Positions 33,406-36,638 of a stretch of DNA of 64,000 nucleotides are shown piece by piece. Both the position numbers and the translations under genes were made by a program. Below the pieces are notes generated by a model, which was not told the origin of the DNA, ran no database searches, and worked only from the letters and a program-made list of their open reading frames with translations. The stretch covers positions 1,426,001 through 1,490,000 of the forward strand of contig JABSSW010000001.1 in the NCBI GenBank assembly GCA_018902385.1, written 5' to 3'. Each line of letters starts with the position of its first letter. Within the stretch, counting starts at the first letter, position 1. Origin of the DNA: Physcia stellaris (lineage: Eukaryota; Ascomycota; Lecanoromycetes; Caliciales; Physciaceae).

Positions 33406-33832
33406 TTCTTGGCTGGGGGCGGAAGGCTCTAGGGGTGCTTCCGGGCCGCTGGTTCTTAGCTAAATGACACCTAGAACCGAGGGGCTACATCAATGCATTG
33501 GCGGATGGGAGAGCACTTCTGATGAAATCAATTAAAGTGATCATCGGGGAGGATTGAGCTGATTGACGAGCCTAGAACGCTTGCGATAAATTAGAAGGCC
33601 TGATGTAGGTGTCGCACTTCCATTCTCGTTAGGGCTACAACTGTAGCTGGATAGAAGTCCGGAGTAGGTCCTAGAGCTTTCCACTTCCGGCAACCTATGC
33701 GCCAACTCCATGATCTGTTCTGCCCTTTCACCAGGCATCAAGAATGGACCACAAGCTGGGAGAATCCAGCCAGATGTATCTAGAACTTCTCTGAGGCGAA
33801 TGCGATGTGTCTGCTACACACGTGGTAAGAAT
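33406..33832. other. Intergenic flank left of the hAT-type element
   Basis: No gene is supported. The last eight bases (33825-33832, GTAAGAAT) are the left copy of the target duplication of the adjoining element. Confidence 0.5.
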
Positions 33833-34529
33833 CAATGATCGCAAATGTGCACTTGCACTATTAGTGCACAATGTGCACTAGTGAAGTTCTCGCAAATTAT
33901 GCAGTGCAGTTTTCGAAAATTATGCACATGTGCAGTGCAGTTCTGAGGTGAGTTGCACTAGTGCAAATATGTAATTACAGAAAAATCGAAAAATACGTCG
34001 AGAGAAGTATTTCATTGATATTTGCTAGTGATGTTGAGTTTTTGTCACCCGAATGAACTCTGAAATTCGTTAAAAACCGATCATGTGAGAGTAATTTGAG
34101 TTTAAAACTGAGCTAGTGTCTGAAATCGAGCAGAATTCGCAATGTCGAGATCGTTCAGATTTAGGGTTAGTGGTCACCTCCGCAGAAATTGAGATTTCTT
34201 ACAATTATATTCACCAATTTCAATGCGACGTCATTATGGGCTCTGATTTTGATCAACAAGCTGCATTGGGCAGTAGTACGGCCTATTTTCGCAAAGCTTC
34301 AAATAGAAGCAATTGTTGAAGCAAATGAAGACGGCCGAGACGACGAAAAAGAAGAAAAATTACTAGAATGCATGCATATCAAGCAAAACATCAAGAAAAT
34401 CATACATTTTATCGGTATGCACTAGTGCAGTGCAGTTTCTAGGTAAACACTAATAGTTTTTTACAAAAATGATTTAGTGCAGTGCAGTTCTGGGCCAAAA
34501 ACTGCACTAGTGCACATTTGCGATCATTG
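33833..34529. mobile_element. Non-autonomous hAT-type transposon (697 bp)
   Basis: The ends are perfect 20-bp terminal inverted repeats, CAATGATCGCAAATGTGCAC on the left and its complement on the right. They are flanked by a perfect 8-bp duplication, GTAAGAAT, at 33825-33832 and 34530-34537. An 8-bp duplication plus CA...TG ends is typical of the hAT superfamily. Subterminal DNA is full of short motifs, GCACTAGTGC and GCAGTGCAGTT, in several copies at both ends, resembling hAT transposase-binding repeats. No transposase frame is present; the interior is AT-rich with only short open frames. Perfect ends and target duplication suggest a recent insertion. It sits about 150 bp upstream of the HET-domain gene. 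Confidence 0.9.
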
Positions 34530-34681
34530 GTAAGAATTCAGATTGTCCAGTCCTGCACAGTGATGACTAATGTGATCCAAGCAAGCTGCGGGCTTTTTCC
34601 GGCTACCTTAGTCTGTACCTTAGTCGGTGACTTTCCTCTCGACATGCAACAGGACGGAAACCTTTAACTGAATCCTTGAAA

Positions 34682-36638
34682 ATGACTAAAGCGTATCAAT
34701 ACGAGCAGTTACCCGACCAGCACGTAAGACTGTTGACATTATTACACCCAGGTCAATTTGAAAGGGAGATACGTCTCAGCCTTGCCTGTGTGCTTTTGGA
34801 CATCGATCGGCCACCCAGCTATCATGCGCTGTCCTACGTCTGGGGAGACACAGATAGGATCAAGTCTATCATCGTTGAGTTGGGCGAAGAGGATTACATC
34901 CACAAAGTCACGGATAACTTATACACTGCTTTGAAATATCTTCGTTCAACTGATCAGGTCCGAACGCTCTGGATCGACGCTATTTGTATTCACCAGGAGA
35001 ATGCCGAGGAGCGTAGTGCACAGGTCGCAAGAATGGCTGACATCTATCGATCCGCTTCAAAAGTCATCATCTGGCTTGGCCCAGCAGGCGATAACAGTGA
35101 CATCGCCATGAAGACTCTTTCATCCATCTCCTCTAGAATCAATGTTCAATGGGCAACGCATGCGATCGAGGTGAGTGACACGAATGACATGAGCTCCGAC
35201 TTAGTAAGCTTCACGAAAGGAATGGAGCTTGACGAAGAAACATGGAGATCGATTGTTCATCTGCTGAACCGTGCCTGGTTCTTCCGACTCTGGATATGGC
35301 AAGAGGTCTTCTTAGCTCAAGACCGTGCAGAACTAGTCTGCGGAGATTCTTCTATGGGTTGGGATTGTTTCCGCAACGCCATTCTCTTACTGACCCAAAA
35401 GCATCGACTTTCGGATTACCCAGGACTTACGTCAGCCATCATACGAGCACGGCAAATTAGCAATCTCCGAAACTGGCTCTCTTTAGAAACCACTCCAAAT
35501 GACCAAATACGCGCTATGCTCGGATCAAAGAGATAGGATATACGGTATTGTGCATCTCATTGACAAGGCATCAAGACCCGATATTCGGCTGGACTATACT
35601 AAGAGCACGGTCGATGTGTTTCGAGACCTGATGCTCACAATGGTCATCACTCATAAAGAGCTTTCACTACTAACAAGTTGTGGGCTCTCGGACTTGTCCA
35701 CTGACATGCCCTCCTGGGTTCCAAATTTTTCAAAGCCTATCGGGAATAGGGACATTTTAACTCCCAGAGCCTGTTGGAATTCTTCCGCACAAGCTCGATA
35801 CACCAACGGAGGGCCTCTAACAGTATGCGGCTGCCGGGCCGCCACCATAAAGCAACAGGTAAACATCCTCAAAGATGATGATCCTTTCCCTCTCCCTTAT
35901 AAGAACATATGGGTAGCCTTAAGAACCCTGTTATGCATAATGTGGGAGAAGCCTTATGTGGACTTTGACCGCCAAAATGATAAGATCTGTCGTACACTGT
36001 GCTGCAACGAATTTGCAGAGTGCTATGAGCCGAAAAGCAGCAATCTTGTTGACTGCCGACAGACCATAGAGCATTTCAATGATTGCGCTAAGTCCACTGA
36101 CGAAGTTTCCGACGACTTCTTGGATCCCTACAGGCGAACCTTGGATCTTTTCTATGCTAGTGTCTTCAATCGTGCTTTTGTCTTTACGGAAGAAGGGTAT
36201 ATCGGTCTGACGCCCAAAAAAGCCCGGCCCAACGACATAATAGTGACATTACTCGGCTGTCAGTCGTCTATCGTCCTCCGTCCCACAGACAAGGGGACTT
36301 ATATCGTGGTGGGTAGCTGCTATGTCCACGACATAATAACCGGTGATCTACTTCTTGGGCCGCTTCCAAAGAACTGGCAGCGTGTCTGGCGTTATGACGA
36401 ACAGACTCAAAATTACTGGGACGCCTTCGTCGATCGTGAGAATGGCATGTGGCAGATCGATGACCCTAGATTAGGAGCTTTACCAGACGGCTGGTCCAAA
36501 GAAGACCATCCTCTGCAGCATGTATACCATGTATTCCGTGACGATTCTACAGGCTCGAAGAGTTCCTCTGACCCACGGATGTTGCCAGAGTCCCTACGTG
36601 CTAGAGGTGTCGACATTCGAGAGTTTCAATTAGTCTGA
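34682..36638 (+). pseudogene. HET-domain protein gene, in two overlapping frames
   Basis: The N-terminal frame (34682-35536) carries a textbook HET domain: YHALSYVWGD near residue 50, then LYTALKYLR, RTLWIDAICIHQENAEERSA and QVARMADIYRSASKVIIWLG, followed by the post-domain block RAWFFRLWIWQEVFLAQD. The C-terminal half (35499-36638) continues in a different frame with DQRDRIYGIVHLIDKASRPD and family-like C-terminal sequence to residue GVDIREFQLV. HET domains drive heterokaryon incompatibility, a programmed cell-death response to non-self, and are related in fold to TIR domains. Total length (about 640-650 aa) is normal for the family. I could not find an intron joining the frames, so the gene is probably inactive or the assembly has an error. 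The upstream hAT-type insertion lies in its promoter region. Confidence 0.8.

Follow-up and report, generated by a model that had tools for sequence, protein, structure and literature searches.

RIP of the Neurospora type takes place after mating and before meiosis. In the sections of the published accounts on which we draw, the order of preference in Neurospora is CpA>CpT>CpG>CpC, and CpC is again the least preferred context in Trichoderma reesei (PMC5496416). Efficacy in Neurospora is described, in one part of PMC9970103, as reduced below ~500 bp and almost nil below 200 bp. In Magnaporthe, Botrytis, and Sclerotinia, CpT accompanies CpA, and CpC is absent from the main text of the paper that describes them; CpG is given there as the signature of the basidiomycetes studied (PMC4352252). 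Monilinia is reported, in the relevant part of PMC8959702, to undergo classical CpA to TpA changes plus CpC to TpT double changes. For Rhizoctonia AG8, CpC-type single nucleotide polymorphisms form the densest single class in one table, under a paper heading that speaks of CpG-biased hypermutation (PMC4014442, excerpted). The MITEs of Zymoseptoria tritici are short and non-autonomous, suffer less from RIP, and frequently lie close to genes, according to a passage of PMC9970103, and a section of PMC4522978 describes MITE families of this fungus without dinucleotide bias.

Here we analyze a short hAT element and its relatives in a 44-Mb genome of 147 contigs, presumably that of a filamentous ascomycete, to judge from a HET-domain gene and RID-like genes. 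We consider it probable that a RIP-like process with a reversed context (CpC > CpT >> CpA, CpG) inactivated the long hAT copies, as well as other repeats in our sample, and that a short deletion derivative largely escaped. As in Neurospora crassa RIP, repeats undergo C-to-T changes on either strand, and short elements are largely spared; the genome also has putative RID-like genes. Unlike in N. crassa, CpC is the most mutated context, followed by CpT, and CpA and CpG change little. The genome shares with Magnaporthe, Botrytis, and Sclerotinia a main target in CpT and, putatively, a methyltransferase of the RID class, but in those fungi, in the sections cited, CpA is also affected (PMC4352252), whereas in the present genome CpC is the foremost target and CpA is spared. 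Because a preference for CpA was tested and not found, we class the pattern as a variant, RIP-like one and not as Neurospora-type RIP, and we file the element itself as an ordinary hAT deletion derivative. In the portions of the literature compared, with Clutterbuck's (2011) ascomycete survey outside the comparison, we found no case in which CpC and CpT are the main RIP contexts and CpA is spared; the pattern may be new.

A 697-bp internal-deletion derivative of a hAT transposon

The element occupies positions 33833 to 34529 (+ strand) of the window, the 64-kb stretch of DNA analyzed here (C1:1426001-1490000), and was delimited by its ends, shuffles, genome matches, and alignment. The preliminary description presented it as a fresh-looking and complete non-autonomous hAT-type MITE with perfect 20-bp inverted ends and a perfect 8-bp target duplication. 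Its inverted ends are in fact one base longer: the 21-bp terminal repeats at 33833 to 33853 (+) and 34509 to 34529 (-) are 100% complementary. The duplication GTAAGAAT is exact at both borders (33825 to 33832 and 34530 to 34537). The terminal 20-mer occurs twice in the window at up to 3 mismatches, compared with 0.00 occurrences expected from 100 shuffles. Terminal inverted repeats of hAT elements are short and start with the consensus CA(A/G)NG or similar, and CAATG stands at both ends here. The reported packing of subterminal motifs is likewise borne out. The palindrome GCACTAGTGC (33955 to 33964, 34419 to 34428, and 34504 to 34513) and the + strand repeat GCAGTGCAGTT (33901 to 33911, 33932 to 33942, 34427 to 34437, and 34479 to 34489) occur three and four times in the whole window, all within the element, against 0.07 and 0.03 expected. 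The observed count of each of three motifs was reached in none of 1000 dinucleotide shuffles of the 697 bp.

The origin of the element is apparent from its longer relatives, among at least 19 matches returned when we searched its own genome with the 697 bp (these counts are lower bounds). The 5' arm (element positions 1 to 472; 33833 to 34304, + strand) matches the 5' ends of the long copies C16, C19 (to position 470), and C41, and the 3' arm (element positions 475 to 697; 34307 to 34529, + strand) matches their 3' ends, placing the deletion junction at about 34304 to 34307. C19 (3648 bp) is flanked by CTTCGATG at either end, the target duplication of C41 (2978 bp) is CATCAATG, and C16 (2986 bp) has none. 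Two copies of a cousin subfamily, C42 (2919 bp) and C21 (4455 bp), have the target duplications TGCGCTTG and TCCGAGCG. A profile search of the genome for the hAT dimerisation domain (PF05699), which the preliminary description had proposed to look for in longer relatives, gave 22 matches, 19 of them over the cut-off; C42 scores 59 bits, and C41, C21, C16, and C19 are over the cut-off as well. Since the arms match opposite ends of long copies and the relatives carry PF05699, the window element is a single internal-deletion derivative of a hAT transposon of about 3 kb. Internally deleted hAT elements of the Ac/Ds type keep both ends, have the transposase mostly deleted, and carry an 8-bp duplication and subterminal repeats. 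The window element shares these features and is mechanistically nothing new.

The name MITE suits the element in its shortness, its inverted ends, and its lack of a transposase, but not in the sense of a homogeneous multi-copy family: the only full-length copy of the 697-bp form among the own-genome matches (a lower-bound search) is that of the window itself, and on this ground we rejected a multi-copy MITE burst. Freshness finds no support either: in the perfect ends and duplication just 29 base pairs are compared, and identity to the nearest relatives is 80 to 92%. With C-to-T changes set aside, comparison with the long copies yields 2 transversions in 223 positions of the 3' arm and 12 to 24 in 453 to 464 positions of the 5' arm, so the two arms may differ in history. 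Four further short elements have only their ends in common with the window element: C67 (150 bp) and C4 (381 bp), each with a perfect target duplication, and C34 (371 bp) and C31 (603 bp), both without one. The 8-bp duplication is thus perfect in seven of the ten elements with two recognized ends and absent in C16, C34, and C31; these counts omit C78 and C65, in each of which one end is recognized. Base-by-base comparison left out the transposase relatives C32, C34:278589, C53, C59, C46, and C5. Identical ends CAAGGCTCGCAATAGTGCAC at C3:1295809-1295828 and C59:124108-124127 hint at a third related subfamily.

The preliminary description saw no transposase frame, which is correct in substance, although a remnant survives at 34236 to 34319 (+ strand). 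It holds the ATG and 23 codons before the junction (MGSDFDQQAALGSSTAYFRKASN), then a few codons from the other side and a stop; its ATG aligns with that of the C42 frame. The deletion may plausibly have arisen during repair of a transposition gap. Because both ends and motifs resembling transposase-binding sites are kept, a transposase made elsewhere could move the short element. Of the autonomous partner that was thought to be implied, we found the longer hAT relatives, but none intact among the five long relatives examined. Four of them (C16, C19, C41, and C21) are heavily mutated. The C42 frame is open for 533 codons between stops, or 493 if counted from the ATG that we took as its start, and the hATC match of C42 carries one in-frame TGA. 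The 533-aa frame matched no Pfam family, and its 493-aa form matched no solved structure. The frames of C42, C19, and C41 end at the same place, where an intron is therefore possible. Of 23 transposase matches, 17 contain stops and 6 are pieces without. In C41 and C16, GCATTAATGC occurs once each where the unmutated form would be GCACTAGTGC, whereas the window element retains three intact copies of GCACTAGTGC; the short element should thus stay movable longer than its long parents. The ends of the family are also recorded more cleanly in it than in the three long copies that belong to its subfamily.

Between the element and the ATG of a HET gene at 34682 lie 152 bp, in agreement with the earlier figure of about 150 bp. 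The first reading frame (34682 to 35536, + strand) has a HET domain in frame from this ATG (PF06985, E 9e-33). A second reading frame (35499 to 36638) takes over in an overlap near 35499 to 35536, so that the gene as a whole extends over 34682 to 36638. Among four intron candidates of the right length class that would join the frames, none was convincing; the one with a branch-like motif was rejected since it would remove a stretch that we take to be conserved HET sequence. The gene may be broken or a pseudogene, or there may be an assembly error at the frame change. In searches of the genome, the left and the HET-side flanks of the element each matched only themselves. The perfect ends and duplication, and a position so close to the HET start codon, could suggest that a MITE was active here in recent times and changes HET expression. 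We regard this as quite improbable given a single copy of the 697-bp form, no intact transposase among the relatives examined, and a HET frame that changes within the gene.

Mutation context in hAT copies and unrelated repeats

Where the long relatives differ from the window element, they mostly have T in place of C or A in place of G. In the aligned arms, from which these counts are taken with the unaligned center excluded, CpY sites are changed at 62/99, 53/98, and 71/98 positions in C16, C19, and C41, and CpA plus CpG sites at 13/161, 10/161, and 10/161. The cousin subfamily resolves the context further. From C42 to C21, changes affect 155/166 CpC, 232/322 CpT, 14/399 CpA, and 5/298 CpG sites (Fisher p about 2e-186). 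There are 406 C>T plus G>A changes (245 and 161, respectively), compared with 7 reverse transitions and 8 transversions. Together, 387/488 CpY sites are changed, and outside CpY changes 34/2905 positions differ. The preceding base has little effect, none comparable to that of the following base, and on this ground we rejected mutation of the UV type.

These counts, with CpA as good as spared, run against canonical RIP in the mutated long copies, and the standard RIP indices are silent as well. They give no RIP signal for C16, C19, C41, and C21 or for the reverse transcriptase copies L074-L077, and the composite index of C16, C19, and C41 is -1.10 to -1.25. Among the short elements, C31 lies at the usual thresholds (1.02, 1.01, 0.00) and C34 and C67 pass that of the TpA/ApT index; canonical RIP was rejected in these three because CpA is undepleted there despite the index values. 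Neither TpA/ApT nor the CpA-based ratio, the indices in common use, gives a signal for the mutated copies tested, and an index-based survey could thus take such a genome to be free of RIP.

The same context appears beyond the hAT copies. We examined 28 non-overlapping loci, a non-random sample in which most loci were chosen for hAT sequence content (L016 and L019 were omitted, being covered by L060 and L063). In 163 windows of 500 bp with less than 32% GC from these loci, observed/expected ratios are 0.03 for CC, 0.02 for GG, 0.25 for CT, and 0.29 for AG, alongside 1.34 for CA and 3.21 for CG. The CC ratio is 0.98 in the 248 windows of 500 bp with at least 40% GC, and the 24 windows between 32% and 40% GC are intermediate. 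The CpG-type mutation of Basidiomycota (Microbotryum, Rhizoctonia) likewise consists of C-to-T changes in repeats, but here CpG is spared and, as the last of the low-GC ratios indicates, over-represented. No 500-bp window within the 64-kb window shows the CpY pattern. The AT-rich mutated flank of C16 is itself repetitive: 43 other stretches match it, at identities of up to 94%.

An unrelated pair of reverse transcriptase copies, L074 to L077, shows changes at 9/10 CpC, 49/70 CpT, 1/116 CpA, and 1/98 CpG sites, with no transversions and 19 transitions in the opposite direction. Of 527 reverse transcriptase candidates, 150 matches were scored; 10 of these have no stops, and the stops in the others are 250 TGA, 33 TAA, and 3 TAG. 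In 10 DDE_1 matches (of 11 candidates), we count 44 TGA and 3 TAA. This excess of TGA fits CpC mutation, because TGG becomes TGA through a change at GpG, which is CpC on the other strand, and changes at CpA would give TAA and TAG. TGA would also arise from CGA by a change at CpG, a context that is spared, however, in the pairs for which we have counts. Two observations run against the CpY reading. The 33 TAA stops in the reverse transcriptase matches are unexplained by CpY changes, and the few differences within L075/L076, a fully mutated pair, include CpA changes (6/84 and 4/83). L075 (C82) and L076 (C23) are still 98% identical although both are fully mutated, as if copied or duplicated after mutation.

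Some copies bear few or no such changes. The reverse transcriptase copies L072 (C5:1166321-1167120) and L073 (C12:60112-60911) are 97% identical over 799 bp, show no CpY mutation, and have long open frames of 1024 and 1151 aa, which makes them candidates for recently arrived retroelements. C42 is also mostly unmutated. Such copies point to a leaky process, to recent arrivals, or to rare sexual cycles.

In the reading that we prefer, a RIP-like process would change C to T at nearly all CpC and most CpT sites and leave CpA and CpG largely as they are. If this is indeed a form of RIP, then the RIP machinery is able to switch its target preference, and index-based programs miss the reversed form. 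A genome in which CpC is near-completely mutated and CpA is spared would then be a natural experiment in which RID-like proteins of opposite preference can be compared.

Mutation at element ends and in short elements

We compared element ends according to the DNA that they adjoin. In C21, the first three 100-bp bins have 0/16, 4/13, and 12/14 CpY sites mutated, the body has about 70 to 100% mutated per bin, and the values at the other end fall through 10/17 and 3/19 to 0/3. C19 has no mutated CpY sites in its first 100 bp (0/9) or its last 47 bp (0/8), and C16, with unmutated DNA outside, has none at its 5' end (0/9). Mutation is thus absent or almost absent from five of the six measured ends that adjoin unmutated DNA, namely the two ends each of C21 and C19 and the C16 5' end. 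The exception is the 3' end of C41, which adjoins unmutated DNA and still has 5/8 CpY sites mutated in the last 47 bp. Ends that adjoin mutated DNA are themselves mutated, with 7/9 CpY sites at the 5' end of C41 and 8/8 at the 3' end of C16. By composition, the terminal 234 bp of C65, which adjoin unmutated DNA, look mutated (CT+AG 9, compared with 23 expected), and in its interior CC+GG is 0 compared with 71 expected.

Mutation stops at the element borders in C19 and C21. Beside C41, the 5' flank (L011:4545-5450) is a CpY-depleted stretch of 906 bp with one other match in the genome, of 124 bp at 82%. Since the stretch is thus not evidently repeated, mutation may extend past repeats, or the partner of this stretch may have been lost. 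A strict neighbor preference is typical of deaminases, and a cytidine deaminase that acts on exposed single strands independently of RID would not need a repeat beside C41. We nevertheless give this explanation very little credence, since the preference concerns the following and not the preceding base, both strands are affected (245 C>T and 161 G>A from C42 to C21), DNA transposons and retroelements are both hit, and mutation halts at the borders of C21 and C19.

In all five short elements (697, 603, 381, 371, and 150 bp), CT plus AG is near expectation and the heavy pattern is absent. CC plus GG is low in each of them, at 0.33 to 0.62 of expectation, which may reflect light CpC mutation or the make-up of repeated motifs. 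In 201 bp of C78, the CC+GG count is 1 against 13.5 expected and CT+AG is as expected. Of sites that are C in C42, the window element has T at 13/28 CpC and 13/82 CpA sites, and by this measure it is spared but not pristine; it and the other short elements may be lightly mutated. The 371-bp element C34 (L014:880-1250), largely unmutated and without a target duplication, directly adjoins a CpY-mutated block.

The fading of mutation at ends and the mildness of short elements broadly fit a recognition step that depends on homology and has a minimum length, and they offer an initial length scale for that step. The RIP-like process would accordingly behave as if it required repeat homology over some length, and the 697-bp element would have largely escaped it, most likely through its shortness. 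Length as the cause of escape is judged here from five short and five long elements. The window element (697 bp) and C31 (603 bp) exceed the ~500-bp limit of Neurospora RIP, and the longest shared arm, at 472 bp, is below it. It is possible, if somewhat doubtful, that the window element owes its escape to late insertion, to its solitary state, or to chance. A single copy of the 697-bp form was found in the lower-bound search, unmutated retroelement copies 97% identical to each other exist, and 697 bp is above the published Neurospora limit, as stated in part of PMC9970103. On the other hand, 5/5 short elements (150 to 697 bp) keep CT plus AG near expectation, and 4/5 of the long elements compared base by base are heavily mutated, a contrast that favors shortness. 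The window element is unlike the MITEs of Z. tritici in that those are many-copy families in a genome with CpA-type RIP.

DNA methyltransferase genes

DNA_methylase matches occur at three places in the genome (L068, L069, and L070). L068 (C6) and L070/L071 (C5) are 40% identical over 174 residues of the catalytic DNA_methylase domain, and the N-terminal regions of L068 and L070 are 34% identical over 149 residues. These two are putatively RID-like. In L069, DUF7893 precedes the catalytic domain, and this gene is presumably DIM-2-like.

The presence of a putative DIM-2-like methyltransferase would allow a slower route, in which CpC and CpT sites of repeats are methylated by this enzyme and methylated C decays to T over evolutionary time. 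From C42 to C21, 387/488 CpY sites changed and 34/2905 positions differ otherwise; the usual decay of methylcytosine does not outpace background change by so wide a margin, which counts against this route. DIM-2 is said to prefer CpT in one part of a review, which speaks for the slow route, but the same passage states the preference as CpT within all CpN contexts and not as CpC first (PMC13297926). Taken together, we find the slow route unlikely.

For the RIP-like process, we infer instead a RID-dependent mechanism that would mutate CpY sites in the course of the sexual cycle. The chances appear about even that this is a form of RIP with a preference the reverse of the textbook one, possibly through one of the two RID-like enzymes. 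Catalysis by RID in vitro has not been detected, according to the section on RID in a recent review (PMC13297926). The open frames of L068 and L070/L071 both end shortly after the same YVS motif, which suggests an intron position in common.
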